Origin: Archangium sp.
Lineage (GTDB): Bacteria; Myxococcota; Myxococcia; Myxococcales; Myxococcaceae
Direction: 5' to 3'
DNA: 64,000 nt
NCBI GenBank assembly: GCA_030681645.1
Contig: JAUXRX010000005.1
Span: forward strand, 310,001 to 374,000
A program made the position numbers and the translations under genes. Shown piece after piece: positions 4,171 to 61,712 of this stretch (positions within the stretch are counted from its first letter, which is position 1; each line of letters begins with the position of its first letter). Under the pieces are notes generated by a model. It had not been told where the DNA came from, made no database searches, and saw nothing but the letters and a program-made list of their open reading frames with translations.

Positions 4171-4215
4171 GGCTGGGCCTGCGGTTAACAGGGAGGCGCA
4201 GGTGGTGCCAGTACA

Positions 4216-4240
4216 CCCCTCGACTGCGCTCGGGGTGAGC
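4216..4240. repeat. Family A palindromic repeat, copy 1
   Basis: CCCCTCGACTGCGCTCGGGG followed by TGAGC: one of eight copies of a ~25-bp imperfect palindrome in the window. This copy is intergenic, between the PilZ gene and the LETM1/TerB gene. Confidence 0.8.
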
Positions 4241-4255
4241 GGCCTGGGGCTCTGC

Positions 4256-13672: not shown

Positions 13673-15349
13673 TCAGGGCACCAATTCGAGCCGCACCACC
13701 ACGGCCCGCCCGCCCGCCACGCGGATCTCCCGCGACAGCGACCTGAAGCCCGGGCGCTCGATCAACACCTGGTACCTGCCCACGGGGAGATCGAGCAGCA
13801 GCGGGGTGCGGCCGCGGGGCACGCCGTCGATCGACACCTGCGCCCAATAGGGCTCGCCGCCGTGGGTGGTGATCACGTTGACCCGCCCCTTCTTCTTGCC
13901 CGGCTGCTTCTTGATCACGGGGTTGGGCTCGACGGCGAGCATCGTGCCTGCGTCGACCTCGGGCTCCTCGGCGCCCGCGTCGAGCCCCTCGGCGACCTGG
14001 ACCACGGCCGCGTCGGGGAACGCGGCGAAGTCGGTCGCGGCGTCGTCGATCGCGGCGACCGCGGCAACGCCCGCATCCACCGGCGCCATGGGCGCAATCA
14101 CCACGGGGCCCTCGTCGGGCCTGAGCGCGAAGTAGAGGCCGGTGCCCACCACCGCCAGCACCAGCACACCGAGCAACGCCCAGGGCCGCCGGCTCGCGTG
14201 CAGGGCCGCCGAGAGCTCGCCCGTGCTCGGGTCGATCTTTCCCGCGACGACGGGGAGCGCGGCCGAAGACACCTTCGACGACTGGAGCTTGCGCAGGCTC
14301 GGCGCGGTGCTGGTCGGCACCTGCGGTACGGGGCCCGAGACCACCGGCAGCGACGACTTCGAGCTCTTCGCTTCCAGGTACGCGGCCTCGAGGGCGGCGA
14401 CCAGCTCGGCGGCGGTGTTGTAGCGATCGTCGGGTTTCTTCGAGAGCGCCTTCTTCACCACGTCGGCGACGGGCCGGGGAATCCACGGCGCGCGGTCGAG
14501 GATCTCGGGTACCGGCGCGTGCGCCTGCAGCTGAATGAGCCGCAGCTCGGAGTCGGCCTCGAAGGGCAGCGTGCCGGTGAGGCACTCGAAGAGCACCACC
14601 GCCAGGGCGTAGAGATCGACGCGATGGTCGACGTCCTTGAGGCCGAGCGCCTGCTCGGGGGCCATGTAGTGCGGCGTGCCCATCACCATGCCGGTGCGGG
14701 TGATGCCGGTGGTGGCGCTCTTCTGCCGGAGGATGCCGAAGTCGAGGATCGTCGCCAGCCCTTCGGGCGAGACGAAGATGTTGGCGGCCTTGATGTCGCG
14801 GTGAATGAAGCCCTGGCCGTGCAGGTAATCGAGCCCGAGCGCGAGCTGGCGCATGAGCTTGAGCGTCTCGTCGGCGGTGAAGCCGCCCTTGGCGCGCAGG
14901 CGGCCCACCAGGGAATCGCCCTGCAGGAGCTTCATCACGATGAAGGGGCGGCCCTCGTGCCGGCCGACGTCGTAGATGGGGATGATGTTCGGGTGATCGA
15001 GCTTGGCGGTGAGGCGGGCCTCGCGCTCGAAGCGCTCGAGCACCTCGGCGTCGTTGACCAGGGCCGCGGCCAGCAGCTTCACCGCCACCTTGCGATCGAG
15101 CTCGGAGTCGTGGGCGATGAACACCGTGCCCATGCCGCCTTCGCCGATCTTGTCTTCCAGCCGGTAGCGCCCCAGCAGCACGTCGTGGGTGCGCACGGGG
15201 AGCACCGTCTTCTCTTCACGGAAGCTCACCGGCTTGAGGCCCCGGTTGGACACGCTCGTCTGCGGCATGGCTGCGCGCACGGCCATTCCGCACGCGGCGC
15301 AGGACTGTGCGCCTTCGGGGAGTGGGGAACCGCACGACGAGCACGTCAC
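13673..15349 (-). CDS. Ser/Thr protein kinase with zinc ribbon, membrane helix and PEGA tail
   Basis: About 558 residues. An N-terminal four-Cys ribbon (TCSSCG and CAACG) precedes a Hanks-type kinase domain (about 60-325): GEGGMGTVF, VAVKLL, HRDIKAANI, DFGI and an APE-type loop. A single membrane helix lies near residue 400 (LLGVLVLAVVGTGLYFAL), and an external PEGA domain (about 490-555) follows. The cytoplasmic kinase would phosphorylate proteins in response to a signal on the PEGA side. The GTG at 15349 opening MTCSSCG is chosen; a GTG at 15382 is possible. It is divergent from a second kinase gene at 15421. Confidence 0.88.
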   Translation of the reverse strand: MTCSSCGSPLPEGAQSCAACGMAVRAAMPQTSVSNRGLKPVSFREEKTVLPVRTHDVLLGRYRLEDKIGEGGMGTVFIAHDSELDRKVAVKLLAAALVNDAEVLERFEREARLTAKLDHPNIIPIYDVGRHEGRPFIVMKLLQGDSLVGRLRAKGGFTADETLKLMRQLALGLDYLHGQGFIHRDIKAANIFVSPEGLATILDFGILRQKSATTGITRTGMVMGTPHYMAPEQALGLKDVDHRVDLYALAVVLFECLTGTLPFEADSELRLIQLQAHAPVPEILDRAPWIPRPVADVVKKALSKKPDDRYNTAAELVAALEAAYLEAKSSKSSLPVVSGPVPQVPTSTAPSLRKLQSSKVSSAALPVVAGKIDPSTGELSAALHASRRPWALLGVLVLAVVGTGLYFALRPDEGPVVIAPMAPVDAGVAAVAAIDDAATDFAAFPDAAVVQVAEGLDAGAEEPEVDAGTMLAVEPNPVIKKQPGKKKGRVNVITTHGGEPYWAQVSIDGVPRGRTPLLLDLPVGRYQVLIERPGFRSLSREIRVAGGRAVVVRLELVP

Positions 15350-16866: not shown

Positions 16867-18570
16867 TCAGTCATCGCGAGCCAGCTTCTCCGCAACCCGC
16901 ACCGTCACCTGAGCCAACGCCGCAGCATCGGCGTCGGCGCCCTCCGAAAACAAGGTGTCCTCTGCCTTGAGCAGCAGTTCCTCGAAGCCGCGCCGCTCGA
17001 GCGCACTGACCGCGACCCCGCCCCGCTGACTCAAGAGCGCCCGCTCGAGGATCTTTTGCACGGCGTCGACCTTGTTCCACACCAACAACCGCGGTGTGCG
17101 CTCCAAACCGAGCGACGTGAGGATCTTCTCCACCGCCTCGATGTGTGAAGCGCGCGCGGGATCCGACGCGTCGACGACGTGCAGCAGCAACGACGCGTCC
17201 TCCAGTTCCTCGAGCGTGGCGCGGAAAGCCGCGACGAGGTCCTTCGGCAGGTCGCGAATGAAGCCCACGGTGTCGGTGATGATCACCTCGTGCTCGCGGG
17301 GAAAGCGCAGGCGCCGGCTGGTGGGGTCGAGGGTGGCGAAGAGCTTGTCCTCGACCAGCACGTCGGACTTCGTGAGCGCGTTGAGCAGCGTCGACTTCCC
17401 GGCGTTGGTGTAGCCGACGATGGAGATGACGGGCAGTTCCTTGCGGCTGCGCTGGCGGCGGCGGGTCTTCCGGTCACCCGACAGCTCGTCGATCTTCCGC
17501 TCGAGAAACGTAATGCGGTCGCGCGCGCGGCGGCGGTCGATCTCGAGCTTGGTCTCGCCGGGTCCACGGCCACCGACTCCACCTGCGCCGGACAGACGCG
17601 ACAGCGACTGATCCGACTGCACCAGCCGGGGCAGCAGGTACTTGAGCTGCGCCAATTCGACCTGGAGCTTCCCCTCACCCGAGCGCGCCCGCTGCGCGAA
17701 GATGTCGAGGATGAGCTGGGTGCGATCGAGCACGTTCAGGTTCGTCGCCTCGCCGATGTGGCGCGCCTGGGAGGGCGAGAGGTCCTTGTCGAAGATGAGC
17801 ACCTCGGCCAGCTTCTGCATGCCGCGGAGGTTGAGCTCGTCGAGCTTGCCGTGACCGATGAGGTACTTCGGGTCGGCCTGGCGGCGCATCTGCAGCACCT
17901 CGTCGACGACCTCCACCCCGGCGGTGCGGGCGAGTTCCTTGAGCTCGGCCAGCGACGACTCGGCGCCGGCGCGGTCCTGATCGAGGCACACGGCCACCAG
18001 CACGGCGCGCTCGCGATCGCCCACCTTGCGCACCCGGGCGGTCGCGGCGAGCTCGTCTTCGAGGGCCTCGACGGTGGCGATGAAGTCGGGGCCGTCGTCG
18101 TAGAGGTTGGGGAGCGTCTCGGTGCGCCACAGCTCGCCTTCCGAGTTCTCGGGCAGCAGGTGGGCGTAGTGCAGCACGCCGGGCAGGCCGTCTTCCTTCA
18201 CGCCGATGGCCGCGACCATGTCCAGGCGCAGCAGGGCGAGGTCGGTGAGGTCGTCGCGGGTGAGCGGCTCGCTCTTCAAGTGGGTGTGCACCAGGCGCAG
18301 GCCACGCAGGCGCACCTGGCCCGCGCGGGCCCGGCCGATGTCGGGCAGCTCGAGCTGGTGCGCGTTGCCCACCACCACCGCCTCGACGTTGCCCTTGCGG
18401 TTGAGCAGCACGCCGACCTGGCGGTTGGTCTCGAGCGAGAACTCGGTGAGGTGCCGCGCCAGCTCCGGGCTGACGATCTCGTGCACGGACACGTGGCGGC
18501 GCCAGGTGTTCTTGAGGTGCTTGAGCTCGCTGGGCTTGAGGCCCAGCACATTTCCCGATGGTTCGTTCAC
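16867..18570 (-). CDS. hflX: Ribosome-associated GTPase HflX
   Basis: 567 residues. The HflX family N-terminal domain ([14 protein letters not shown], with [16 protein letters not shown]) and coiled-coil linker ([20 protein letters not shown]) lead to the G domain: GYTNAGKST (G1), DTVGF (G3), NKVD (G4). HflX binds 50S/70S ribosomes and splits stalled ribosomes under stress. It is longer than the ~430-residue E. coli protein because of a ~190-residue N-terminal extension carrying its own alpha/beta fold, a form also seen in other phyla. It is divergent from the prepilin peptidase gene across about 30 bases. Confidence 0.95.
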
Positions 18571-18601
18571 AGGCTGGCTTTCTTGTTACCCTCTGCGCGT
18601 C

Positions 18602-19627
18602 TTGGACGCACTGATCACCATCTGGATAGCGGCCATCGGGCTGAGCGTGGGCAGCTTCCTGAACGTGGTCATCGCGCGGTTACCCAACGACGAGAGCGTG
18701 GTGCGCCCCCGCTCGAAGTGCCCGAAGTGTGGCCACCAGCTCCCCTGGTACGAGAACGTGCCGGTGCTCTCGTGGCTGTGGCTGCGCGGCAAGTGCTCGG
18801 GGTGCAAGGCGCCGATCTCGCCCCGCTACATCCTGGTCGAGCTGCTCACCGGCACCCTCTTCGTGGCGGCCACGGCCCGCTTCGGCTTCGACTGGCCGCT
18901 GGTCTCTGCGCTCACCTTCTTCACCTTCCTCATTCCTCTCATCTTCATCGACGCGGAGTACTGGATCCTGCCGTTCGAGCTGACGCTGCCGGCGATCGCG
19001 GCGGGGCTGTTGCTGGCGCTGCCCATGGGGAAGGACGCCTTCCTCTTCGCGCTCTATGGCGCGCTGGCGGCGTTCCTCACGTTCAGGGTGATGGAGATTG
19101 CGGGCTGGGCCGTCACGGGCCGCGAGGCGCTGGGCGCAGGCGACAAGTACCTGATGGCGATGATCGGCGCGCAGGTGGGGTGGAAGTCGCTCCTGGGCGT
19201 GATCCTCTTCTCTTCGCTTCAGGGCTCGGTGGTCGGGCTGGTGCGCATGCGGCTCACCGGGCGCGCCGGGCCTGCGACTCCTCCCTCGACTCCGCTCGGG
19301 ATGAACGGGGAGCCCGAACCCGAGGCCGAGGAAGAGGGTCCGAAGCGCGAGCCCTTCACGCCTGAGTTCTTGAAGCCCGGGTTGCCGGTGTGGAAGCGGT
19401 TGTTGGCCATTCCGTACACGATCTTCCTCCAGGACATCCCCGACTCGCCGCCACCCGACGAGACGACCGGGGAGATTCCTGACTGGGTGCCGCAGGCGAA
19501 CAACATTCCGTTCGGCCCGTGGATCGGGCTGGCCGGCATCGAGGTGATGCTGCTGGGCCCGTGGATCGTGCAGCGCCTGTCGGACACGCCCTGGCGGCTG
19601 CTCTCGGAGATCGTCTTCGGGCGCTGA
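18602..19627 (+). CDS. pilD: Prepilin peptidase / N-methyltransferase (type IV leader peptidase)
   Basis: 341 residues, TTG start. A membrane aspartyl protease that cuts leader peptides of type IV pilins and type II secretion pseudopilins and methylates the new N-terminus. Features: [12 protein letters not shown], a four-Cys cytoplasmic ribbon ([10 protein letters not shown] and CSGCKAPIS), and the catalytic Asp pair in [10 protein letters not shown] and GAGDKYLMA. The family's last membrane segment ([13 protein letters not shown]) is displaced by an ~80-residue hydrophilic insertion after GLVRMRL, which includes a translated family A repeat ([10 protein letters not shown]). The start is uncertain; no ATG or GTG lies in the right place. 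Confidence 0.88.
19283..19308. repeat. Family A palindromic repeat, copy 2 (inside pilD)
   Basis: CCCTCGACTCCGCTCGGGAT plus GAACGG, read in frame within the prepilin peptidase gene as PSTPLGMNG. It lies in the hydrophilic insertion between the last two membrane segments, a tolerant site. Confidence 0.85.
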
Positions 19628-22272: not shown

Positions 22273-23282
22273 GACCGGTGGCGTTGAGCTCCAGCCCGTG
22301 GCTGATCGACTCAGCCCGCGCGCAGCTGTACCGGGCGCTGCGGCCGTGGCTCGCGCCGCTCTACGCAGATCGTTCCCGCCGCGTGCTGTGGATGGGGCTG
22401 TTCTCGGTGAGCGTCTCGTTCGTGCTCACCCTGGTCGCGCCGTTGTGGCTGCTGGCGCTGGGCCCGGTGCTGCTGGGCGTGCCTCACCTCGTGGCCGACG
22501 CCCGGTACCTGGTGGTGCTGCCGAAGCTGCACGAGCGCGGCGCGTTGGCGGTGCTCGCGGCGCTGCCCCTCGTCGCCACCGGCTTCGGCGCGCCCGCGTT
22601 CATCAGCCTGCTCTCGCTGGTGCCCGCGGTGTTGATGGCGCGCGCGAGCCCGGGTCGCAAGGCCGTCGGGCTCACTGCGTGGGCCGCGCTCACCGCCGTC
22701 GCCTTCGCGTGGGAAACGCAGTTCCTCCTCGCCTTCCTGCACCTGCACAACCTCATCGCGCTGGGCTGGTGGTGGGCGCTGCGGCCGAGGACGAAGCAGG
22801 CGGCGTGGGTGCCGGCCGTGGTGCTGGCGGGCACTGCGTTCCTCCTCGCGGGAGGCGCGGAGCCGATCATCAGCGCGCTGGGCGGGTGGCAGGCCCCGGG
22901 CAGCGGCACCAGCTTCGCCGAGTTCGTCGAGACGGCCTCGCCCCCCGGGCTCGGAGCCAGCCTGGCGCTGCGCCTGGTGCTGTCGTTCGCGTTCCTGCAG
23001 TCGGTGCACTACGCGCTGTGGCTGCGCCTGGTGCCCGAAGACGCGCGGGTGCGCCCGGCGCCCCGCCCCTTCCGCGCCACGTGGGATGCGCTCGTGGCTG
23101 ACTTCGGGCTTCCGTTGCTCGCCGTGTTCGTGGGGCTGACGCTCTTCATCGCGCTGTGGGGGCTCGTGGACCTCGCGTCGGCGCGCTGGGGCTACCTGCG
23201 GCTCGCCGCGTTCCACGGGTATCTCGAGCTGGCCGTCGCCGCGCTGTTCCTGGTGGAACGAAAGCGACCGTCGGCGTGCTGA
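22269..23282 (+). CDS. Polytopic membrane protein with intramembrane His residues
   Basis: 337 residues with about nine hydrophobic segments. Several His lie within or next to membrane helices: GVPHLVADARYL, FLHLHNLIALGWWW, QSVHYALWLRL and AFHGYLELA. The first motif loosely resembles the GxPHxxxD motif of the Brp/Blh carotene-oxygenase family, where such His bind iron, but overall identity was not established. It is coupled by ATGA overlap to the small exported proteins upstream and overlaps the next membrane gene, so it probably works with them. Function unknown. Confidence 0.55.
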   Translation: MRPVALSSSPWLIDSARAQLYRALRPWLAPLYADRSRRVLWMGLFSVSVSFVLTLVAPLWLLALGPVLLGVPHLVADARYLVVLPKLHERGALAVLAALPLVATGFGAPAFISLLSLVPAVLMARASPGRKAVGLTAWAALTAVAFAWETQFLLAFLHLHNLIALGWWWALRPRTKQAAWVPAVVLAGTAFLLAGGAEPIISALGGWQAPGSGTSFAEFVETASPPGLGASLALRLVLSFAFLQSVHYALWLRLVPEDARVRPAPRPFRATWDALVADFGLPLLAVFVGLTLFIALWGLVDLASARWGYLRLAAFHGYLELAVAALFLVERKRPSAC

Positions 23283-23614
23283 CCGCGCTGTGGGGTTGGC
23301 TGGTGGCGTTCTTCTTCACGCAGCTCTTCGAGATGCCCATCTACTGGAAGGCGACGGGGAGCCTGCGGGTGGCCTTCCTCGCCAGCGCGATGACGCACCC
23401 GGTGGTGTGGTTCGTGTTTCCGGTGCTGATGGAGCACGGGCTGTCGTGGGGGTGGATGGTGGTCTTCGCAGAGCTGTTCGCGGTGCTGGCCGAGGCGGCG
23501 TGGCTTCGGTTCAACGCCGTGCCCCTCGCGCTCGCGGCGGCGTGGAGTCTGGGGGCGAACGCGTTCAGCGCCACGCTCGGGTTTGTCTTGCGGCACTATC
23601 TGGGCTTTCCGTAG
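23276..23614 (+). CDS. Small polytopic membrane protein
   Basis: 112 residues, GTG start overlapping the previous stop by 7 bases. Three to four membrane helices are visible, including LTALWGWLVAFFFTQLFEMP, THPVVWFVFPVLMEHG and VVFAELFAVLAEAAWL. The intramembrane motif ELFAVLAE and the charged EMPIYWK look conserved in kind, but the family was not recognised. Last gene of the cassette that begins at 20935. A family A repeat follows it. Confidence 0.55.
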   Translation: MLTALWGWLVAFFFTQLFEMPIYWKATGSLRVAFLASAMTHPVVWFVFPVLMEHGLSWGWMVVFAELFAVLAEAAWLRFNAVPLALAAAWSLGANAFSATLGFVLRHYLGFP

Positions 23615-23650
23615 CCGCGCGCCCCGGCGTGAACGGAACTGGCCGAATCC

Positions 23651-23676
23651 GTTCAGCCCGAGCGAAGTCGAGGGCC
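23651..23676. repeat. Family A palindromic repeat, copy 3
   Basis: GTTCAGCCCGAGCGAAGTCG followed by AGGGCC, intergenic between the convergent genes ending at 23614 and 23692. It could serve as a hairpin terminator for either. Confidence 0.8.
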
Positions 23677-23691
23677 CTTGCTCAACACAGC

Positions 23692-25293
23692 CTACTCGAG
23701 CAGTTTGTAGTACCGCAGCGGCTGGGCGACGTTCTTCACCGGCGTCTCGACCAGCGGGCCGAACTTGAGGCTCGTCATCGCCGGGTCCTTCGAGTTGGCG
23801 ATGGCCCGCATCGCGGTGTCCATCACCAGCGTCTCGCGGAACGTGCCCAGCGACTGCAGGCGCGCCGTCTGGTTCATGCCGGTGGAGAACGAGGTGTAGT
23901 TGCGGTTGGGGCCGAACAGGCCGCAGAAGCTGGGGGTCAGGTTGACGCCGATGGCCACGCCCAGACCGGGCATCTGGAGGATCTCCGAGAGCCTCGAGAT
24001 CTCCGGGTGCGCGCTCATGGTGTCCTTGGTGAAGCGCTGGATCTCGATGGCGGCCTTCAGGGTCGCGCTGGCCCGCGAGGTCGCGTCGTCCTTGAAGAAG
24101 GGCGGGCCGAACAGGCCGATCACGCAGTCGCCGACCATCTTGTCGAACACGCCGCCGTGCCGGTGGAGGATGCGCACCGCTTCTTCCGACCAGTCGTCGA
24201 CGAACTTGCCGATGCGCTCGGGGCGCTCGAGCACCTGCTCGCAGATGCGGGTGAAGCCGTTGATGTCGGCGAAGATGATGCCGACCTCCTCGGCGCGCGG
24301 GGCGAGGTAGGTGCGCTCGTAGTCGGGGTCGCGCAGCAGCTCGTCGATGGCCCGGCTGGCGAAGAACTGCGAGAGGTGAATGCGCTCGCGGTTGTAGTCG
24401 ATGAGGCGCTGGCTCAGCGTCGAGCCGAGCAGGCGCAGCAGCTCCATGGTGTACGACGAGAAGCCCTCGCCGCCGCTCCAGACCATGATCTTCCCCAGCG
24501 CGTGCGACTCGGCCACGCCGCTGATCAGCACCGTCTCGACGGCCTTGCGGTTGCCCAGGACCGTCTGCAACTGGCGGTCGTGCGGCATGATCAGGTTCTG
24601 CCCGTGCGCGCGGATGGCCGCGTCGAGCTCGGGGTCCTTGCGGCCGTTCGAAGAGAACTCGAGCTGGCCGTACTTGTACTGCCGGTAGTGCAGCGCGCCC
24701 GACTCGACGGCGTCGCGGTACATGAGGAGGAACCCGGGCACCTTCACCCGCTCGCACAGGGCCCGCACCGCGCCGTCCATGCCGGTCTCGAAGACGCGGT
24801 TGGAGAGCGAGTGGTTGATGGTGACCAGCACCTGGTGCTTCTCGGACGCGGTCTGCACGGACGCGAGCACCGTGTCGAGCTGCTCGGCCACGGTGTCGAG
24901 CAGGCGGCCCAGCTTCGCGGCGTCGGCGGTGCGATCGCCCTGGAAGAGCACCCCCATCGCGCCCACCTGGTGCCCCACCAGATCGAGGGCCTGGCTGCAG
25001 AGGGTGTCACCGGTCTCGAGCTTGCGCACGCCCCAGCGGGCGGCCTCGAGGTACGTGCCGGCGAAGACCCCGCCGAAGTCGCCGTGGTGAAAGGTGGCCT
25101 GGGCCAGCTCTTCGTCCAGCGTGCTCACCACCGCCCCCCTGGCGCCCAGCACCTCGAGCAGGGGTGGGAAGAGCCGCTTGAAGGTCTGCTGCAGGCTCTC
25201 GCGGGCCTTGAGCGATTCCTCGAGCAGATCGTCGACGACCCGGGAGACCTGCCTGAGCAGCTTGAGCTCTTCGAACGTGAGTTCGGCGTCCAT
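23692..25293 (-). CDS. Class III adenylate/guanylate cyclase with N-terminal sensor region
   Basis: 533 residues, no membrane segment. Residues ~1-180 contain a coiled start and a GAF-like region. A second alpha/beta sensor-like region spans ~180-310. The catalytic domain spans ~335-500. Metal-binding Asp occurs in IIFADINGFTRICE and VFDKMVGDCVIGLFG, and the transition-state Asn/Arg in NQTARL. The product would be cAMP or cGMP; substrate-choosing residues were not resolved. The gene is convergent with the membrane-protein cassette and divergent from a small secreted protein. Confidence 0.82.
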   Translation of the reverse strand: MDAELTFEELKLLRQVSRVVDDLLEESLKARESLQQTFKRLFPPLLEVLGARGAVVSTLDEELAQATFHHGDFGGVFAGTYLEAARWGVRKLETGDTLCSQALDLVGHQVGAMGVLFQGDRTADAAKLGRLLDTVAEQLDTVLASVQTASEKHQVLVTINHSLSNRVFETGMDGAVRALCERVKVPGFLLMYRDAVESGALHYRQYKYGQLEFSSNGRKDPELDAAIRAHGQNLIMPHDRQLQTVLGNRKAVETVLISGVAESHALGKIMVWSGGEGFSSYTMELLRLLGSTLSQRLIDYNRERIHLSQFFASRAIDELLRDPDYERTYLAPRAEEVGIIFADINGFTRICEQVLERPERIGKFVDDWSEEAVRILHRHGGVFDKMVGDCVIGLFGPPFFKDDATSRASATLKAAIEIQRFTKDTMSAHPEISRLSEILQMPGLGVAIGVNLTPSFCGLFGPNRNYTSFSTGMNQTARLQSLGTFRETLVMDTAMRAIANSKDPAMTSLKFGPLVETPVKNVAQPLRYYKLLE

Positions 25294-25352
25294 GTGGGAA
25301 AGAAAGTAGCAGAGAACATGAGGTGGCCAACGATCCGGCTACAATAGGTCTC

Positions 25353-25646
25353 ATGCTCCTCGCGACCGCTGCTGCTTTCGTGCTCTCGACCTCGGCTGGC
25401 ACCAAGCCGAACACCTACAACGAGCGCTGGCTCTGCGACCTCTGGGCCGGGGCGCAGTGCCACGCCACCAGCTGCCAGAAGGACGGCAAGGCCCGCTGCG
25501 AGGCGGTGTCCAAGCAGTGCGAGGGCACCAGCCGCACCACGACCGTCGACTCGGCCCGCGCCGAGAAGAAGGCCGCCTGCGCCCGCGCGCTGCTCAAGGA
25601 GAACTGCGGCGCGAACAAGCCTCCGGAGTGTGAAGGCCTGCTCTGA
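25353..25646 (+). CDS. Small Cys-rich exported protein
   Basis: 97 residues. The ATG at 25353 gives a short signal peptide (LLATAAAFVLSTSA); an upstream in-frame GTG is less likely. The mature part has nine Cys, for example CDLWAGAQCHATSCQKDGKA, with a charged helical middle. TACAAT at 25340-25345 resembles a -10 box immediately ahead of the start, which would give a nearly leaderless transcript. No family recognised. A long family B repeat follows the stop. Confidence 0.6.
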   Translation: MLLATAAAFVLSTSAGTKPNTYNERWLCDLWAGAQCHATSCQKDGKARCEAVSKQCEGTSRTTTVDSARAEKKAACARALLKENCGANKPPECEGLL

Positions 25647-25650
25647 CCTC

Positions 25651-25780
25651 GCTCCCTCTCCCTGCCGGAGCGGAGCCGGTCCAGCGGAACGCTGGACAAG
25701 CGCAACTGAAGCGAAGCGAAAGGTGCGCCAAGGCGAAGCGACCCGAAAGGCAGCGGGGAGAGGGTCGGGGTGAGGGGCCC
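25651..25780. repeat. Family B repeat, copy 4 (long form, inverted)
   Basis: About 130 bp, the reverse complement of copy 2 (4735-4868) with scattered mismatches. It starts CTCCCTCTCCCTGCC and ends GCGGGGAGAGGGTCGGGG. Inner palindrome TCCAGCGGAACGCTGGA is also kept. It fills most of the 179-base gap before the PEGA gene at 25826. Confidence 0.8.
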
Positions 25781-25825
25781 ACTGGGTAGATCCCCCGAGG
25801 CGAGTTCTGGGGTAGGACTTCAGCG

Positions 25826-27094
25826 ATGACTCGCCTGTTGATCGCGCTGACCTCGCTGCTCTCCCTGGTGGCCTTTGCCCAGGGTGAAGCGCCGCCCCCC
25901 GCCGCCGCCCCCGCAGTGAAGCCGAAGCTGACGGTGATGCCCTTCGCCGCGCTCACCGGAGACGTGCCCCAGCGAGCCGGAGCCAAGGCCGTGGGCATGC
26001 TCACCACCGAGTTCAAGAGCGCCGATTCCTTCGCGCTGGTCGACGGGAAGAAGGAGAAGGCCGCCGGCGGCGCCGACGAAGCCCTCGAGAAGGCCCGCAA
26101 GGAAGTGAACGACGCGAAGGAGCTGCGCGGGAAGAAGAAGTTCCGCCTCGCAGAAGAGGCGCTGCAGCGCGCCCTCACCGCCTACAAGTCGGCGCCCGGC
26201 GCCCTGGCCGAGGTGGGCGAGGTGGTCGACGCCTACGCCCTGCTGGCGGCCGTTCAGTACAACACCGGCCGCGACGAAGACGGCGCGAAGAGCCTCAACC
26301 AGGCGCTGACGATGGCGCCCGAGCGCGAGCTGCCCCTGGCCCAGACGTCGGCCCTGTTCGCGCGCGTGGTGACCGATGCGCGCAAGGTGCTCAAGGACGG
26401 CCCCAAGGGCTCGCTCATGCTCGAGTCGGCGCCTTCGAACGCGCCGGTGCTGCTCGACGGCCTGTCCCTGGGCTCGACGCCGCTGTCGGTGAAGGACGTG
26501 CCCCCGGGCCTGCACTTCTGGAAGGCGACCCTGCCCTCGGGCGAGGCGCTGGGTGGCGTGGTCGAGGTGGTGGGCGGCAAGCAGGCGATGGCGAAGGCGA
26601 GCTCGGCGAGCAAGGACCCCGAGTCGCGGCTGCTGTCGTCGCTGGCGCAGAACAAGCTCGACGCCGACCTGGTGGCGGCGGCCCGGGAGCACGCGAAGTC
26701 GGCCGAGGCGGACCTGGTGGTGTTCGGCGCGCTCTCGAAGGAAGGCAAGGGCCTGGCGCTCGACACCTTCCTCTTCGCGGCGTCGACCGGTGACGTGCGG
26801 CGCATGGCGCGCGCGTCGTTCGACACCGAGCTGCTGTCGGCGGGCATGGAGTTCTTCAACCTGGCCGGCGAGCTGGCCAAGCACGGCGACAAGGTGGGCG
26901 AAGCGGTGAAGGTGCCGTCGTCGGTGTCGATGACGTTGATCACCGGCGGGGCCTCGAAGCTGGCCGAGGCGAAGTACGGCGTGGTGCCGGGCAAGGAAGG
27001 GCTCGAGGGCCTCGAGACGCCGGAGCCCACGAAGGAAGACGGTCCGCGCAAGCCGCTGGAACAGAAGCGCCGCGCTCCGCTCAAGAGGCAGTGA
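25826..27094 (+). CDS. Exported PEGA-domain protein
   Basis: 422 residues. A signal peptide (LLIALTSLLSLVAFAQ) is followed by a Pro/Ala linker and an alpha/beta segment beginning KPKLTVMPFAALTGDVPQRA, which recalls the opening of periplasmic GNA1162/TolB-like proteins. Helical TPR-like repeats (about 90-185) precede a PEGA domain (about 190-250, SLMLESAPSNAPVLLDGLSL). A second alpha/beta region and a charged tail close it. Probably a periplasmic or surface scaffold. The stop overlaps the gluQRS start as GTGA, so the two are translationally coupled even though their roles look unrelated. Confidence 0.65.
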   Translation: MTRLLIALTSLLSLVAFAQGEAPPPAAAPAVKPKLTVMPFAALTGDVPQRAGAKAVGMLTTEFKSADSFALVDGKKEKAAGGADEALEKARKEVNDAKELRGKKKFRLAEEALQRALTAYKSAPGALAEVGEVVDAYALLAAVQYNTGRDEDGAKSLNQALTMAPERELPLAQTSALFARVVTDARKVLKDGPKGSLMLESAPSNAPVLLDGLSLGSTPLSVKDVPPGLHFWKATLPSGEALGGVVEVVGGKQAMAKASSASKDPESRLLSSLAQNKLDADLVAAAREHAKSAEADLVVFGALSKEGKGLALDTFLFAASTGDVRRMARASFDTELLSAGMEFFNLAGELAKHGDKVGEAVKVPSSVSMTLITGGASKLAEAKYGVVPGKEGLEGLETPEPTKEDGPRKPLEQKRRAPLKRQ

Positions 27095-27993
27095 CCTCGC
27101 CCACTCACCGGGGGCGCTTCGCGCCCAGCCCAACGGGCCGTCTCCATCTCGGCAACCTGCGCAGCGCCCTGCTGGGCTGGCTCTGGGCGAGGTCCTCCTC
27201 GGGAGAGTTCCTCCTCCGCATCGAGGATCTCGATCCCGATCGCAGCAAGGCTGTCTTCACCGACGGCATCTTCGAAGACCTCGAGTGGCTCGGCCTCGAC
27301 TGGGATGGCCCCGTCTGGCGCCAGTCGGAACGAGGGGAGCTCTACGACGAAGCGATCTCCCGCCTGTCGCAGAGTGGCCGCGCCTACCGCTGCTGGTGCA
27401 GCCGGGCGGAAGTGGCGCGCGCGGCCTCCGCGCCCCACGCAGGAGAAGAAGGTCCGGTCTACCCGGGCACCTGTCGCGAGGGGGCAACCCCGAAGCCGGG
27501 CCGGGAACCCTCCTGGCGCTTCGCCGTCGAGCCGGGCACCGAACGCTTCACCGACGCGGTCCACGGAGAGGTGACCCAGGACGTCGCGCGAGACGTGGGC
27601 GACTTCGTGATCAAGCGCATCGACGGCGTGGCGAGCTACCAGCTGGCCGTGGTGGTGGACGACGCGCTCTCGGGCATCACCCACGTGCTGCGCGGGGAAG
27701 ACCTGCTGGCCTCGACCGCGCGTCAGCTGCAGCTCCAGCGCGCGCTGGGCTACCCGGCGCCGACGTACGCGCACGTGCCGCTGTTGATGCAGGCCGACGG
27801 AAAGCGGCTGGCGAAGCGCGACGGGGCCTCGACGGTGGCGGGCCTGCGTGAGCTCGGCTGGCCGGCAGAGAAGGTCATCGGTCAGCTCGCGGCGTGGAGT
27901 GGACTGGGTGACGGCACCCCCGTGAAGGCGCGGGAGCTGATCAGCGGCTTCTCGCTCGCCCGGGTGAAGCGGACCGCGACGGTGGTCGGGTGA
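27091..27993 (+). CDS. gluQ: Glutamyl-Q tRNA(Asp) synthetase
   Basis: 300 residues. Attaches glutamate to the queuosine base in the anticodon of tRNA(Asp), a wobble-base modification. It is a glutamyl-tRNA synthetase catalytic domain without the anticodon-binding half. HIGH-type motif is HLGN in RFAPSPTGRLHLGNLRSALL, and the KMSKS counterpart is KRLAKRDGAS. Zinc ligands are in CWCSRAE and PGTCRE. Length fits GluQRS (~300) and not GltX (~470). GTG start overlapping the PEGA gene; the stop overlaps the next gene likewise. Confidence 0.93.
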   Translation: MTSPTHRGRFAPSPTGRLHLGNLRSALLGWLWARSSSGEFLLRIEDLDPDRSKAVFTDGIFEDLEWLGLDWDGPVWRQSERGELYDEAISRLSQSGRAYRCWCSRAEVARAASAPHAGEEGPVYPGTCREGATPKPGREPSWRFAVEPGTERFTDAVHGEVTQDVARDVGDFVIKRIDGVASYQLAVVVDDALSGITHVLRGEDLLASTARQLQLQRALGYPAPTYAHVPLLMQADGKRLAKRDGASTVAGLRELGWPAEKVIGQLAAWSGLGDGTPVKARELISGFSLARVKRTATVVG

Positions 27994-28457
27994 GGCGCGA
28001 GCTCCTCATCGCGGCGGCGGTGCTGGTGCCGTTCGGGGTGCTCGTCGCCGCCGGGTTCTATTTTTCGCCTGAGCCAGCCCCGTTCATCCCGAGCGAAGTC
28101 GAGAAACCGTTCATCCCGAGCGAAGTCGAGGGACCGTCGGCCCAGTTGCCCCTCGACTCCGCTCGGGGTGAACGGTCACCGGTGTTCCCGCCCGGACTCG
28201 CCGCCCCGCTGACGGCTGTCCTGCCCGAGGTGAAGCGCTGCTTCGCCGACCAGCACCTCAAGCAACTGCACGAGGTCCGCGTGCGCTTCACCCCCACCCG
28301 CGACGGGGGCTTCGACCGGGTGGAGGTCGACGAGCAGAACCCGTACCTCCAGGCCTGCCTCGAAGACGTGTTCGCCGAGGTCGCCTGGCACCCGTCAGGG
28401 CCTGAGACGTACACCCCCGCTGAGCACACCTTCAGCTTCGGGCCCTCCCCCGACTGA
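27990..28457 (+). CDS. Membrane-anchored small protein carrying three translated family A repeats
   Basis: 155 residues, GTG start. One N-terminal membrane helix (LLIAAAVLVPFGVLVAAGFY) is followed by a 32-residue stretch that is almost entirely three family A repeats: PFIPSEVEKP, PFIPSEVEGP and LPLDSARGERS. The conserved body (about residues 75-150) resembles the AgmX/PglI C-terminal or TonB-like fold, with VLPEVKRCFADQHL, VRVRFTPTRDGGFDRVEV and LQACLEDVFAEV. The repeats lengthen the linker between anchor and domain. Coupled to gluQRS by overlap. Confidence 0.6.
   Translation: MRRELLIAAAVLVPFGVLVAAGFYFSPEPAPFIPSEVEKPFIPSEVEGPSAQLPLDSARGERSPVFPPGLAAPLTAVLPEVKRCFADQHLKQLHEVRVRFTPTRDGGFDRVEVDEQNPYLQACLEDVFAEVAWHPSGPETYTPAEHTFSFGPSPD
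28082..28173. repeat. Family A palindromic repeats, copies 4-6 (cluster inside a gene)
   Basis: Three copies: 28082-28107 and 28109-28134 are direct neighbours in the same orientation (GTTCATCCCGAGCGAAGTCG), and 28149-28173 is inverted. All are read in frame in the membrane protein at 27990-28457, the first two as PFIPSEVE, the third as LDSARGE. Confidence 0.9.
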
Positions 28458-28477
28458 CATAGAGTCAACGCCCTCAA

Positions 28478-29311
28478 ATGCCTGCGGTCGTCGAACCTCT
28501 GGGTCCCACGCATGTCGCCGCGCTGCGGACGATGTTGTCACGCGACACGACCCACAACATGTACCTCCTGGGGTTGATGGAGGAGTTCGGCGTCGTCTCG
28601 GGGCCCATGCGCGCGCCCTTCACCTTCTACGGGCGCTTCTTCGATGACGAGCTGACGGCGGCGCTCTTCGTGGGGGGCAGCGGCGGGCTGGTGGTGCCCT
28701 CGGCCTCGAGCCCGATTCACATCGGCGACATCGCCAAGAAGCTCGCCGGGAAGATCGAGATCCGCTCGGCGATCGGCGAGCAGAGCGTGGTCGACTCGCT
28801 CATCCGCCACTTCAGCGTGACGCCGAAGTTCATCAAGTCGCAGAAGCTGTTCTCGGTCTCGCCCAACGACCTGGGGCCCTTCACCAACCCCCTGCTCCGC
28901 CCCGCGACCGCCGCCGATCTCCCGCAGCTCGTGCCGATGGCCGCGGCCTGCGTGAAGGAGATGGTGAAGCGCGACCCGCTCGAAGAAGACGCGGTGGGCT
29001 TCGAGCTGCGGGTGCGCCAGCGGGTGCACTCGCACCGCACCTACGTGCTCGAGGAGAAGGGCAAGCTGGTCTTCAAGCTCGACGTGGGCAGCCGCTCGCA
29101 GTTCGGCGCAGAGCTCGAAGGGCTCTACACCGCCCCCGAAGAGCGCCACCACGGCCACGCGACGCTGTGCCTGGGGCAGATCTCGCGCTTCCTCATGTCG
29201 TCCCTGCCGCGGCTCACCGTGCGCATCGACGACGAGGCGACGCACTTCGCGAGCATCGCGCGCAAGGTGGGCTACCTGCAGGGCCGGGCGCAGAAGCTGC
29301 TCTGGGTCTGA
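28478..29311 (+). CDS. GNAT-family N-acetyltransferase with DUF4081-like N-terminus
   Basis: 277 residues. The N-terminal ~135 residues resemble the DUF4081 region (NMYLLGLMEEFG early on, as in the family). The C-terminal ~140 residues form a GNAT domain, with the acetyl-CoA-binding region GLYTAPEERHHGHATLCLGQ and a final IARKVGYLQGRAQKLL. Substrate unknown; DUF4081/GNAT proteins are uncharacterised. No overlap with neighbours, so it is probably transcribed alone or after the gluQRS group. Confidence 0.75.
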   Translation: MPAVVEPLGPTHVAALRTMLSRDTTHNMYLLGLMEEFGVVSGPMRAPFTFYGRFFDDELTAALFVGGSGGLVVPSASSPIHIGDIAKKLAGKIEIRSAIGEQSVVDSLIRHFSVTPKFIKSQKLFSVSPNDLGPFTNPLLRPATAADLPQLVPMAAACVKEMVKRDPLEEDAVGFELRVRQRVHSHRTYVLEEKGKLVFKLDVGSRSQFGAELEGLYTAPEERHHGHATLCLGQISRFLMSSLPRLTVRIDDEATHFASIARKVGYLQGRAQKLLWV

Positions 29312-29381: not shown

Positions 29382-31901
29382 ATGAGGGGCCACGTGTCGG
29401 AAGTGTCCTGCCGTGCATTCTCGTTCTTCACCGCTGCCCACAAGGCGGGGCTGATCTCGCTCGACGAGCTGCTCGCAGGGCAGCCGCTTTCGCGCGAAGT
29501 GCTGGAGGACGCCGGCAACCGCGTGCCCTGGGACCAGTGGGTCACCCTCTGCGACCGGTTCGCCGCGATGCTGCCCAGCGAAGACGCGCTGTGCGAGACC
29601 GGTTCCTTCGTGCTGAGCGAGGGCTTCAGCGGCTACCTGGGGAAGGTGGTTGGCCTCTTCACCGACGCCGCGCAGATCTACGAGGTGTTGGCGAAGTGGG
29701 GCGGCCCATCGCTCTACCGGAGCGTCACGTTCAGCACGGACACCACGCAGCCCGGGGTCCTCACCTTCACCGCCGAGCTGCTCCCCGGCTTCCGGCCCTG
29801 CCGCTCGTGGTTCCTCATGGCCGAGGGAGCCCTCACCCGCATTCCCTTCTTCGCGGGGCTCCCCGATTCCCTGGTCGAACGCGTCACCGTCACCGGGCAG
29901 GGCGGTGTCTGGCGGGTCAGGCCTCCAGCGTCGGGCTCGCTGGGCTCGTCGTTCCGCCGCATGTGGACCGCCCTGTCTGCGCCCGACGCCATCTTCAACG
30001 AACTCTTCGCGCAGCAGGTGCAGCTCCAGCGAGCCTTCGACGAGATGCGACGTTCGGCGAAGACCTTCCGCAACGCCCTCGACGCGCTCCCGCTCCTGGT
30101 TGCCGTGCACGAAGAAGGGCTGCTTCGCTACGCCAACCCCGCCTTCGCCGCCTTCTTCGGCCGCCCGCCCGCCGAGTTGGAAGGCACCCGCCTCGAGGCG
30201 CTCTTCCCCGACAGCCAGCGGGCGCTGCTGGCCGCTGCGACCACCACCGCCCTGTCGCTCCTGGTCAACGGGGGGGCCACCCCGCGCCAGCTGGAGGCGT
30301 GCAGCGCGGGCGCGGTGGAGTTCGACGGCAAGCCCGCCACCCTCTTCTTCGCGCGCGACGTCACGGTCGAACGGGAAGCCGAACAGCGCGCGACGCGCAG
30401 CGAGGCGACGCTCGAGGCGGTGATCGGCGCCTTCCCCGACCTCGTGCTCCGCTTCGGGCGCGACGGCACCCTGCTCTCGGTACACGGCGGCACCTCGGTG
30501 CGGGAAACCGCGCTCCTCACCACGCTGGTGGGCCGGACGTGGGCGGACGTGCTCGAGCGCTTCGGGGACTCGGGGATCGAGCCCCGGAGGCAGCTGGTGA
30601 CCGACCTCGAGGAATCAATGGCCACCGGCCTTCCCCGCGAGCGCCTCTACCAGCCGGCCGCGGCGGGAGGCCGGGCGCGAGAACTGCTGGTGCGCTTCGT
30701 GCCGCTCGCCCTGGGCAAGGAGGTCATCGTCATCACGCACGATCAGACCCGGCAAAAAGACGTGGAGCGCCGGCTGGAGATCGCCGAGCGCATGGCGTCG
30801 CTGGGCTCGCTCGCCGCGGGCGTGGCGCATGAGATCAACAACCCGCTCACCTGGGTGATGGGAAACGTCGCCACGCTCCAGGCGCAGCTGGCGGACGGGT
30901 CGTCGAAGGAAGACGTGCTGACGCTGCTGGCCGAGGTCAACGACGGGTGCGCGCGCATTCGCGACACGGTGGGGCGCATGCGCGACTTCAGCCGCGTTCA
31001 GCAGGCCTCGCAGCGGCGGGTGGTCGTCGCCGAGCTGGTGGACCGCGCCGCCCGCATGACGCACACCGAGGTGCGGCACCGGGCCCGCCTCGAGCTCGAC
31101 CTCACGCCCGGCCTGCAGGTGCTGGGCGACCCGACCGAGCTGGGCCAGGTGATCGTCAACCTGCTGGTGAACGCGGCGCAGGCGATGCCCGAGGGCGCTG
31201 CCCCCGAGCGCCACCGCATCCGGCTGCGCTCCTTCGCCGAGGGCGAGCGCGTCGTCATCGAGATCACGGACGACGGCGCAGGCATTCGGCCGGAACACCT
31301 GCCGCGCCTCTTCGATCCATTCTTCACCACCCGGCACCACGCAGCGGGGACCGGCCTGGGGCTCGCCATCTCCCATCGCATCGTCGCGGCCCACGGCGGC
31401 GGCATCGAGGTGAAGAGCGAGCCGGGCAAGACCACCTTCCAGGTGAAGCTGCCCTTGCAGCCCATCACGCCCGAGCAGCCCGTGGTCGAGGCCACGCTGC
31501 CGGTGGCGAGCCGCCGCGCCACGGTGCTGGTCATCGACGACGAACCCCTGGTGGGGAAATCCATCAGCCGGATGCTGCGTGATCACGACGTGGTGGTGAC
31601 GGCCGACGGGAACGAGGCCCTCGCGCGCCTGCGGGACGGCGAGCTGCCGGACCTCGTGTTGTGCGACCTCATGATGCCCGGCCTCACCGGCATGGAGCTC
31701 TACGAGCGCCTCTCCGAGGTGAGGGAAGAGGTGCTGCCACGCCTGGCCTTCATGTCGGGCGGCGCGTTCACCCCGGGCGCGGAGCAGTTCGTCAACAGCC
31801 ACCCGGTGACGGTGCTGACCAAGCCGTTCGACCGGCGCACCCTCGACGCGCTGGTGGCCCAGGTGCTGGCCACGGGCGCCACCGCGAGTGCCGGGCGGTG
31901 A
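29382..31901 (+). CDS. Hybrid sensor histidine kinase / response regulator, soluble
   Basis: 839 residues without a membrane segment. Residues ~1-195 are a conserved-looking input region (FTAAHKAGLISLDELLAGQP, then VPWDQWVTLCDRFA) reminiscent of AraC-type or heme-NO-like sensor starts. A PAS domain spans about 225-320 and a second PAS-like region 340-455. HisKA follows with phospho-His483 (GVAHEINNPLTWV), then HATPase (N, G1 DDGAGI, G2 GTGLGL). A C-terminal receiver has Asp762 (LVLCDLMMPG) and Lys in LTKPFD. It should autophosphorylate on a cytoplasmic signal. No cognate output gene is adjacent. Confidence 0.88.
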   Translation: MRGHVSEVSCRAFSFFTAAHKAGLISLDELLAGQPLSREVLEDAGNRVPWDQWVTLCDRFAAMLPSEDALCETGSFVLSEGFSGYLGKVVGLFTDAAQIYEVLAKWGGPSLYRSVTFSTDTTQPGVLTFTAELLPGFRPCRSWFLMAEGALTRIPFFAGLPDSLVERVTVTGQGGVWRVRPPASGSLGSSFRRMWTALSAPDAIFNELFAQQVQLQRAFDEMRRSAKTFRNALDALPLLVAVHEEGLLRYANPAFAAFFGRPPAELEGTRLEALFPDSQRALLAAATTTALSLLVNGGATPRQLEACSAGAVEFDGKPATLFFARDVTVEREAEQRATRSEATLEAVIGAFPDLVLRFGRDGTLLSVHGGTSVRETALLTTLVGRTWADVLERFGDSGIEPRRQLVTDLEESMATGLPRERLYQPAAAGGRARELLVRFVPLALGKEVIVITHDQTRQKDVERRLEIAERMASLGSLAAGVAHEINNPLTWVMGNVATLQAQLADGSSKEDVLTLLAEVNDGCARIRDTVGRMRDFSRVQQASQRRVVVAELVDRAARMTHTEVRHRARLELDLTPGLQVLGDPTELGQVIVNLLVNAAQAMPEGAAPERHRIRLRSFAEGERVVIEITDDGAGIRPEHLPRLFDPFFTTRHHAAGTGLGLAISHRIVAAHGGGIEVKSEPGKTTFQVKLPLQPITPEQPVVEATLPVASRRATVLVIDDEPLVGKSISRMLRDHDVVVTADGNEALARLRDGELPDLVLCDLMMPGLTGMELYERLSEVREEVLPRLAFMSGGAFTPGAEQFVNSHPVTVLTKPFDRRTLDALVAQVLATGATASAGR

Positions 31902-42304: not shown

Positions 42305-43024
42305 ATGCCGAAGGTCCAGCGCAACACCACCCAGGCCGTCACCCCGCAGCCCACGAAGCCGAAGACCACCGTGCCTGCGAAGCCGCAGCCCGCCACCTCG
42401 AGCACCGGGTGGGTGAAGCCCGCCACCGGCGGCACCGTGGGCGGCGCGTCGATCGACACCAAGACCGCGCGCACCGCGTTCTGGCACTCGCCGTACACCA
42501 ACGCCGACGCGAAGGCGGCGCAGAAGGCGTTCGGCCTGCCCAACCTCAACGCGGCGAAGGAGTTCATCGGCCGGGCGGTGATCACCCGCAACGAGGGCCC
42601 GCTGCAGCAGAAGGGCATCAGCCGCGCCCGCTACGACAACCACGACTGCACGGTGGCCTTCTCGCGCAGCCCGTACACCGACGCCGACGCTCGCCAGGCG
42701 CTCTCGAAGATGCCCTTCCTCAAGAACGTCGCCGAGGCGAAGGAGTACATCGGCCTCAAGATCGTCAACAAGACGGAAGACATCCTCCAGGAGGTCGGCG
42801 TCACCCGCTCGAAGTTCGACAGCCACGACATGATGGCCGCGTTCAAGCGCTCGGGGTACTCGGCCGCCGACGTCGACCAGGCGAAGAAGAAGTTCGACTT
42901 CCTCAAGGGCGCCACCACCCAGGAAGTGAAGGAGTACATGGGGCTCAAGGTGCTCAACGACTACACCTCGATGATGACCGAGGCGGGCATCACTGCCGGC
43001 CGCGATCGCCACGAGATCAAGTGA
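42305..43024 (+). CDS. Triple-repeat protein upstream of amidoligase
   Basis: 239 residues, not recognised. A ~48-residue Thr/Pro/Lys-rich start (TPQPTKPKTTVPAKPQPATS) is followed by three tandem ~62-residue repeats. Unit 1 has AFWHSPYTNADAKAAQKAF and AAKEFIGRAVITRNEG. Unit 2 has AFSRSPYTDADARQALSKM and EAKEYIGLKIVNKTED. Unit 3 has AFKRSGYSAADVDQAKKKF and EVKEYMGLKVLND. Each ends near [RS]xxxDxHD. There is no signal peptide. The stop overlaps the amidoligase start (GTGA), so the two are made together; this protein may be the ligase substrate or partner. Confidence 0.65.
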   Translation: MPKVQRNTTQAVTPQPTKPKTTVPAKPQPATSSTGWVKPATGGTVGGASIDTKTARTAFWHSPYTNADAKAAQKAFGLPNLNAAKEFIGRAVITRNEGPLQQKGISRARYDNHDCTVAFSRSPYTDADARQALSKMPFLKNVAEAKEYIGLKIVNKTEDILQEVGVTRSKFDSHDMMAAFKRSGYSAADVDQAKKKFDFLKGATTQEVKEYMGLKVLNDYTSMMTEAGITAGRDRHEIK

Positions 43025-44028
43025 AGGTTCGGCGGCCCCTCGACTCCGCTCGGGGTGAACGGGTCGGACTCGAACTGGAGCTGCTCGCACCTCCAGGGAA
43101 GACACGCTTCGACCTGGCGCGCGCTCTCGCGAAACGAGCGGGGGGCGCGCTTCGTCTTGCCTTCAAGTACCACGGCCAGGGCGAGCTCCCCGACGGGCGG
43201 CCCGACTGCCAGCTCACCCCCACGGCGCGCGTGCTGGTGCGTGGGAAGTGGTTCTGCTCGGTCGTCGATGATCCCACCATCGTCGACGAGCTGGCGCCGA
43301 CTGACGAGAAGCTGCGAATCGCGAGGACCGACGACGTGCGCCTCGCCGCGTGGATCGAACGCAACTGCCACGCCCGGTTCGCTGGTCCCTCGACTCCGCT
43401 CGGGATGAACGGTGCTGCCTTCGCTTCGCTGGTGAAGACCTTTGCGGCGAAGGAAGAAGAAGACGGCTTCGTCGATCCCTGGGGCCTGCCGCTGGTGCGC
43501 TGGCACGAGGTGTCTGCCGAGCGCGCGCGGGTGTGCGAGGTGGTGCTGCGTCCCCTCGGCCGCAAGGCGCTCGCCCCTACCCTGCGCCGGGTGCTGAAGC
43601 TCGCCTCGTCACTGGGCTTCACGGTGCCCGTCGAGGCGGCGATTCACGCGCACTTCGACGCCGCGCCATTTCGTTCCACGCGTGCGTTGCGGCGGCTGGT
43701 GCTCGATTGGACCGAGCAGCGCACCTCGCTGCTGCGCGTGCTCGAGCCCAACCCGCGCTGCCGCAAGCTGGGCCCCTTTCCACCCGACGTGGTGCGGGTG
43801 GCGCAGGCCGCGACCGACGACCTGCCCTTCGAGACGCTGGCCGCGGGGCTGCTGCTCGGTGGGCTGCACCGCGCGGTGGACCTCAACCTGCTGGGCCTGG
43901 TGGAGCGCTACCCGAAGCAGCCGACCATCGAGGTGCGCTGCCTGCCCGGGTCGCTCGACGCCGACGCGACGCTGGGCCGGCTCGCCCACGCCGAGGCCTT
44001 CCTGGCCGACGTCACATCCTCCGCTTGA
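43021..44028 (+). CDS. Amidoligase-family protein (COOH-NH2 ligase-like)
   Basis: 335 residues, GTG start. Pattern of the putative amidoligase family (Amidoligase_2): GLELELLAP at the start, WFCSVVDDPTI, EVVLRPLGRKALAP, VEAAIHAHFD (the GxHVHV region), and near the end DLNLLGLVERYPKQPTIEVR. This glutamine-synthetase-like fold joins carboxylates to amines with ATP. Two family A repeats are translated within it, RPLDSARGERV at the very start and PSTPLGMNG near residue 125. The natural start may therefore be blurred. The 3' end overlaps the convergent dehydrogenase by 17 bases. Substrate unknown. Confidence 0.72.
   Translation: MKVRRPLDSARGERVGLELELLAPPGKTRFDLARALAKRAGGALRLAFKYHGQGELPDGRPDCQLTPTARVLVRGKWFCSVVDDPTIVDELAPTDEKLRIARTDDVRLAAWIERNCHARFAGPSTPLGMNGAAFASLVKTFAAKEEEDGFVDPWGLPLVRWHEVSAERARVCEVVLRPLGRKALAPTLRRVLKLASSLGFTVPVEAAIHAHFDAAPFRSTRALRRLVLDWTEQRTSLLRVLEPNPRCRKLGPFPPDVVRVAQAATDDLPFETLAAGLLLGGLHRAVDLNLLGLVERYPKQPTIEVRCLPGSLDADATLGRLAHAEAFLADVTSSA
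43036..43060. repeat. Family A palindromic repeat, copy 7 (amidoligase N-terminus)
   Basis: CCCCTCGACTCCGCTCGGGG plus TGAAC, read as PLDSARGE immediately after the amidoligase start codon. Confidence 0.85.
43387..43410. repeat. Family A palindromic repeat, copy 8 (inside amidoligase)
   Basis: CCCTCGACTCCGCTCGGGAT plus GAAC, read in frame as PSTPLGMN in a loop region near residue 125 of the amidoligase. Confidence 0.85.
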
Positions 44029-57064: not shown

Positions 57065-57098
57065 GGAGTGCCTCGACGGTCTCGGCCAGAGCGCAGGA

Positions 57099-59036: not shown

Positions 59037-59056
59037 GTGGGACTCCGGAGATTGGT

Positions 59057-59575
59057 TCATCGCTGCACCGCCGCGGCACCCGTCAACTCGAGGGTGCCAC
59101 CCGTCATCGTCGTTCTGGGGGTGATGTGGCCCACCTGGAGGTCGAGCGTGAGCGTGCCGCCCTGCGCGCGCCCGCTGGCCGAGGTGAGCTCGGACGTCTG
59201 CGGGAGCGCGCTGCCGCTGCCCCCGCCTGTCGCGCCGCCGCCACCGCCCGTGGTCCCGCCGCCGCCGCCCGTGGTCCCCCCGCCGCCGCCCATGGCGCCG
59301 CCTCCGCCCGCGCCGCCGCCCGTGGTGCCTCCGCCGCCGCCGGTGGTGCCACCGCCGCCACCGGCCGCGCCACCGCCTCCGCCCCCCGCGCCTCCGCCGG
59401 CCACTCCGCCACCGGATCCTCCGCCCATGCCCATGCCCTCGGCGCACTTGCCGCCCACGCAGACCTGGCCGCCGGGACAGTTGGCGTCGGTCTCACACGG
59501 TGCACCGGTCGCCACGGGCACACAGCCCGCGGCCAGCACGAGCCACGGCACCAACGACAGGATGTGGATTCTCAA
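59057..59575 (-). CDS. Gly-rich lipoprotein, copy 1
   Basis: 172 residues. Lipobox LAAGCVPV, then the Cys module GAPCETDANCPGGQVCVGGK. About 75 residues of almost pure Gly with Ala/Thr follow, then a ~45-residue end (SGRAQGGTLTLDLQVGHITP) that repeats in the gene at 61713. Gly run and Cys module suggest a flexible anchor for a partner protein. The stop overlaps an upstream-start option of the tail-fibre-like gene by ATGA, so the two are coupled. Confidence 0.75.
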   Translation of the reverse strand: MRIHILSLVPWLVLAAGCVPVATGAPCETDANCPGGQVCVGGKCAEGMGMGGGSGGGVAGGGAGGGGGGAAGGGGGTTGGGGGTTGGGAGGGGAMGGGGGTTGGGGGTTGGGGGATGGGSGSALPQTSELTSASGRAQGGTLTLDLQVGHITPRTTMTGGTLELTGAAAVQR

Positions 59576-59617
59576 GCGCCCCCTCTTCGGTAGTGCGTCA
59601 GCATAGCCTCGAGTCTT

Positions 59618-61692: not shown

Positions 61693-61712
61693 GGAATGCT
61701 CCGGGGTGAAGT

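Follow-up and report, generated by a model that had tools for sequence, protein, structure and literature searches.

We describe a new family of short REP-like repeats in an Archangium genome, eight copies of which lie in the window (the whole 64,000-nt stretch analysed here, positions 310,001 to 374,000 of contig JAUXRX010000005.1, here C35). It behaves like known intragenic REPs and like the palindromic elements of Rickettsia, to which it is likened by description. The family, made up of single units and inverted dimers, is probably non-autonomous and mobile-like, and probably spread under selection for reading frame and protein fold. Copies enter coding genes in any open frame, and the survivors sit in linkers, loops and termini that tolerate insertions and deletions. 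For most copies, the orthologue comparisons place this spread after the divergence from genus mates.

The repeat unit and its distribution

Copies from a 1.63-Mb sample of the host genome (10.24 Mb, 69% GC; the host is a soil bacterium) were aligned to give the 28-nt consensus CCGTTCAYCCCGAGCGNAGTCGAGGGRC, and 139 copies in this sample fit the unit within 6 mismatches of 26. The tag region has the consensus CCGTTCA, with T as the fourth base in 106 of 142 copies and C in 23 of 142. A 16-base core occurs exactly 479 times in the genome (227 + 252), the reversed control 0 times, in keeping with the dispersed family proposed in a preliminary description of the window. The same description called the unit a palindrome of about 25 bp, which holds in part. 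A single unit is a weak palindrome with a bulged stem of the form YCCC..GGGR, and folded as DNA it does no better than its shuffles. However, positions 8 and 27 covary (C-G in 75, T-A in 35 and G-C in 9 of the 139 copies), with a mutual information of 0.62 compared with 0.17 for the next pair (93 distinct units). Thus the outer stem is real despite the weak fold of the single unit.

The sample comprises 70 singles, 27 pairs and 5 triples. Among 37 close pairs, 18 are +-, 9 are -+ and 10 are direct, so that head-to-head dimers predominate. A head-to-head pair with a conserved 21-base spacer core forms an 80-bp element, and the spacer GGCGCCCAGGCTCGCAGGAAG (at most 2 mismatches) was found 40 times in the host genome and once across eight other genomes. 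The 80-bp head-to-head form is therefore amplified, about 40-fold, in this species only. The tail-to-tail (TT-type) form is common to the host genome and genus mate G003, with many copies there.

In a survey of the phylum, 51 of 195 genomes had any match, and five, the host genome included, had at least 50 copies of a wider core. Copy number ranges from 0 to 503 across one genus, with 71 exact cores in G003 and 23 in G004. The host, G003, G014, G037 and G042 are repeat-rich, and the genus mates G001, G002 and G005 are repeat-poor. In G042, which shares the order but not the family of the host, 11 of 62 exact core matches were called in genes, and in G003 7 of 27, as counted in stretches chosen around copies and with the gene model of the host genome. 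The consensus around the core in G042 (L233-L252) extends the unit to CCGCTCATCCCGAGCGCAGTCGAGGGACGAGCGG, a far more complete palindrome than that of the host genome, and six 14-bp GAGCGGAGTCGAGG units stand head-to-tail in a row at G088:C301:7194-7278. Rfam matched nothing within window positions 23000-29000 up to an E-value of 0.1. Our literature search found no report of the repeat CCGTTCAYCCCGAGCGNAGTCGAGGGRC in myxobacteria, and the core strings matched unrelated papers.

Copies within and between genes

In the window, the core CCCTCGACTCCGCTCGGG with at most 3 mismatches has 8 matches, compared with a shuffle mean of 0.49 and none of 100 shuffles reaching 8. As first described, six of the eight lie in frame within genes. 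The prepilin peptidase gene pilD (ORF 18206-19627) has one unit at 19281..19308 on the minus strand, which reads PSTPLGMNG and lies in a variable linker following the A24 domain. The gene at 27990..28457 (plus strand) encodes a small membrane protein that, in the orthologue alignment, consists of a hydrophobic N-terminal segment, a linker and a conserved C-terminal part. It holds three units, as read from its translation: one at 28080..28107 (+), reading PFIPSEVEK; its direct repeat at 28107..28134 (+), with a spacing of 27 nt, reading PFIPSEVEG; and an inverted one at 28148..28175 (-), reading LDSARGE. The amidoligase gene at 43021..44028 (plus strand; Pfam match to Amidoligase_2, PF12224) holds two, both on the minus strand. 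By translation and orthologues, the first (43035..43062) reads LDSARGE at the N-terminus, after the start codon and ahead of the conserved domain; the second (43385..43412) reads PSTPLGMNG inside the gene, where aligned orthologues are 9-14 residues shorter. The remaining two copies are intergenic, one at 4215..4242 (-), the other at 23649..23676 (+), which is the 3' arm of a tail-to-tail element that G003 carries as well.

Other repeats share the window. A repeat of about 110-130 bp at 25652-25783 has dozens of copies in genus mates G003 and G004, the stretches 15063-15176 and 30763-30870 each turn up more than once in genus-mate genomes, at several loci, and 57000-62200 holds paralogous genes with tandem units of 123 nt and 21 nt.

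The window is atypical, since genome-wide most copies lie outside genes. In the 1.63-Mb sample, of which 86% was called as coding, a strict, start-optimising caller placed 33 of the 139 copies in genes, 4 across a gene end and 102 outside; counting a hit by either of two callers raised the in-gene number to 59 of 139. These calls come from an in-house script, and the in-gene share ranges from 24 to 42% with the choice of start. Because the strict caller sets the start of the 27990 gene at 28230 and that of the amidoligase at 43231, it misses four window copies inside genes, which the orthologue alignments restore. The first description was thus right that copies exist within genes, but insertion into genes is a minority fate, and coding DNA holds far fewer copies than its extent would predict.

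Both orientations and several frames are read, as had been noted from the window. Among the 33 in-gene copies of the strict caller, 10 are in sense frame 0, 4 in sense frame 1, 5 in sense frame 2, 8 in antisense frame 1 and 6 in antisense frame 2. All five open frames are therefore used, and antisense frame 0, which holds a TGA, has none of the 33.

Neighbouring copies are inverted between genes, and direct and in register inside genes. Each of the ten direct close pairs is placed in a gene by one or both callers, nine with a spacing that is a multiple of three; the tenth (C35:236206, spacing 62) is in a gene by the longest-ORF caller only and is probably intergenic. Among the 27 inverted pairs, 19 have at least one member outside genes, and a single pair is intragenic according to both callers (direct versus inverted by gene location, Fisher p = 1.3e-4).

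Two further kinds of bias were considered and set aside. Elements of the IS200/IS605 type show a lagging-strand bias; here the orientation of singles relative to the GC skew shows none (39 of 70). A bias toward promoters or terminators was too weak to be of use, at 0.41 intergenic copies per kb in convergent, 0.35 in codirectional and 0.28 in divergent regions. At C35:225275-225396 (L122), a duplication of about 66 bp adjoins a copy, so that the gene downstream has its beginning twice.

Orthologous sites and the linkers that hold copies

For 16 sites in 14 genes, we aligned orthologues drawn from as many as five genus mates. The preliminary description had stated that its reading would be refuted by the same residues in orthologues that lack the palindrome. 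This refutation failed: in 42 of 42 comparisons the unit was absent, the closest stretch at a site having at least 9 mismatches of 26, and in 3 of the 42 the orthologue was mostly gap. Most insertions are therefore lineage-specific, with respect to relatives that are about 70-90% identical and include no strain-level pair of empty and filled sites.

The reverse comparison began from three in-gene copies of G003. Two are absent from the host genome, G004 and G005; one of them adds 21 nt, and the other, the second copy at L259, adds only 3 nt, as if a resident linker had been overwritten, which would be consistent with either insertion or copying over. At the third site a longer form of the unit is present in the host genome too, and G004 and G005 are without it, so not every copy is lineage-specific.

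The aligned sites had no consistent target-site duplication. The net change in length at a site ranges from about -4 to +27 residues, and the simple fixed-length insertion implied at first is thus not general. The amidoligase is +27 to +42 nt longer than its orthologues, with G003 reading RNC-AGN-FAAL at the site. A NuoE-NuoF fusion has about 20 extra residues inside its 2Fe-2S domain, a secretory protein has 19 more residues at the unit site, and the signal peptide of a lipoprotein is nine codons (+27 nt) longer than in G002. Changes are smaller in the gene at C8:85908 (+4 to +5 residues) and in pilD (-3 to +8 residues). An Hsp70-family protein holds two units at one site inside its HSP70 match; most of the remaining sites follow a Pfam domain or separate two of them.

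This spread of lengths bears on whether in-gene copies are mainly replacements, written over a resident linker by template switching or gene conversion with no dedicated transposase. The small or zero changes at C8:85908, pilD and the second copy of G003 L259 would be expected of replacement, as would the lack of a RAYT partner and the ~66-bp duplication beside the copy at C35:225.3 kb. On the other hand, the lipoprotein, amidoligase, NuoEF and secretory protein have clear gains of unit length or larger, and the species-specific 80-bp dimer, with its ~40-fold amplification, looks like a transposing unit. We consider replacement possible but unlikely as the main route.

The first description held that copies are tolerated in loops and linkers, and the alignments agree. 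Among sites with two or more relatives, 11 of 11 have, no more than 6 columns away, an indel by which those relatives differ among themselves, where random positions in these alignments would give 4.8; at 3 of the 11 (in the membrane protein and the two nudix linkers) a relative also holds a second repeat family, which itself adds indels there. All 11 testable sites are thus in linkers or loops that, judged from these alignments, are prone to indels. A few added or swapped residues in flexible linkers are apparently harmless, and in the aligned genes sister species appear to fill such linkers with nothing or with another repeat.

The other repeat is a second hairpin (CCCTCTCCC..GGGAGAGGG type), found at four unit sites in some genus mate: in the linker of the 27990 membrane protein (G002 and G004), in both linkers of an adenosine-deaminase/NUDIX fusion (G004) and at C6:278054 (G003). 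Across all orthologues, the 5,223 nt at the sites contain it 6 times, and the remaining 38,319 nt of those orthologous coding sequences contain it once (p = 1.9e-5). Unrelated repeats therefore land in the same linkers. A comparable case is recB, in which two Xanthomonas species carry different REPs at about one site (Di Nocera et al. 2013, PMC3733652). The second hairpin family (CCCTCACCCC..CCCTCTCCC) is also seen at window positions 2790, 4734 and 19636; it is rare here and common in genus mates. In the host genome, this family (family B) gave 21 pattern matches, weak ones included, compared with 11 for the control.

A more far-reaching suggestion is that linkers of bacterial proteins are shared landing pads, where unrelated hairpin families independently and repeatedly write in different species by RAYT-free copy-over, selection filtering only frame and fold, so that linker sequence would be largely supplied by repeats. 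We regard this as unlikely.

Mobilisation and relation to known repeats

The host genome has one Y1_Tnp (PF01797, RAYT-like) gene, at C48:229-552. Its contig carries the spacer of the 80-bp dimer, so the gene belongs to the host genome and is not a contaminant. It is not flanked by the unit, and across 30 Y1_Tnp loci (this one and 29 from related genomes, with up to 1.5 kb fetched on each side and the upstream flank of the host locus missing at the contig edge) we found no flanking unit, only chance matches with 2 mismatches. G003 and G004, which both bear the repeat, gave no Y1_Tnp match, and the consensus of copies has no GTAG tag. The RAYT-type transposase that the preliminary description had envisaged is therefore not supported as the mobiliser. 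The mobile-repeat interpretation is otherwise mostly supported.

The C48 gene, or a lost relative of it, could still have moved the unit in trans. The gene exists, the dimer spacer lies on its contig and one flank is lost at the contig edge, but the unit-free flanks of the 30 loci, the repeat-bearing genomes with no Y1_Tnp match and the missing GTAG tag make this very unlikely. Finally, uptake-type signals would also be expected to have high copy number and to be tolerated in linkers, but the idea that the unit is a functional motif for uptake, segregation or recombination, gained by point mutation and selection and not as inserted DNA, is highly improbable given the 28-bp unit with its species-specific dimer spacer, the many sites with residues that orthologues lack, the range of 0 to 503 copies among species within one genus and the lack of strand bias.

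For the family as a mobile-like, non-autonomous repeat, we suspect that new copies may arise through an enzyme that recognises the hairpin, or through template switching there. Selection would then purge copies that are out of frame, contain a stop or disrupt the fold. In genes, short in-frame tandem duplications may subsequently enlarge the linker.

Rickettsia palindromic elements are in-frame coding repeats in unrelated genes that are tolerated in the protein. The Archangium unit shares in-frame copies in coding genes that are absent from orthologues, a likeness of description and not of sequence; it differs in its free-living host with a far larger genome, in its mostly extragenic copies, and in using five frames and both orientations. 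GTAG REPs and REPtrons are likewise imperfect palindromes, mostly extragenic and with inverted (BIME-like) dimers, whereas the present family lacks the GTAG tag and a unit-flanked RAYT gene. MITEs have terminal inverted repeats and a target-site duplication; the 80-bp dimer has inverted ends, and the aligned sites have no consistent duplication.

The CGTC-tagged REPs, as described by Di Nocera et al. 2013 (PMC3733652), have an unpaired CGTC (TGTC/CCTC) end tag, a stem of 8-9 bp starting with AT and a loop of 4-5. On that account, the shared features are short high-copy hairpins that are mostly intergenic, with head-to-head dimers common and some copies in frame in genes. Those REPs have no associated transposase; for the present family, the search covered Y1_Tnp and gave no gene flanked by the unit. 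The tag differs, being CGTTC/CGCTC here and not CGTC, as do the stem (4 + 2 bp with a bulge, not 8-9 bp starting with AT) and the loop (about 6 nt here).

The family extends coding palindromic repeats to the large genomes of free-living myxobacteria. A high-copy REP-like family with no RAYT partner is a place to look for another mobiliser. Its in-gene copies supply a natural map of insertion tolerance, and the convergence of two families on the same sites provides countable evidence for repeat insertion driving the evolution of linkers.
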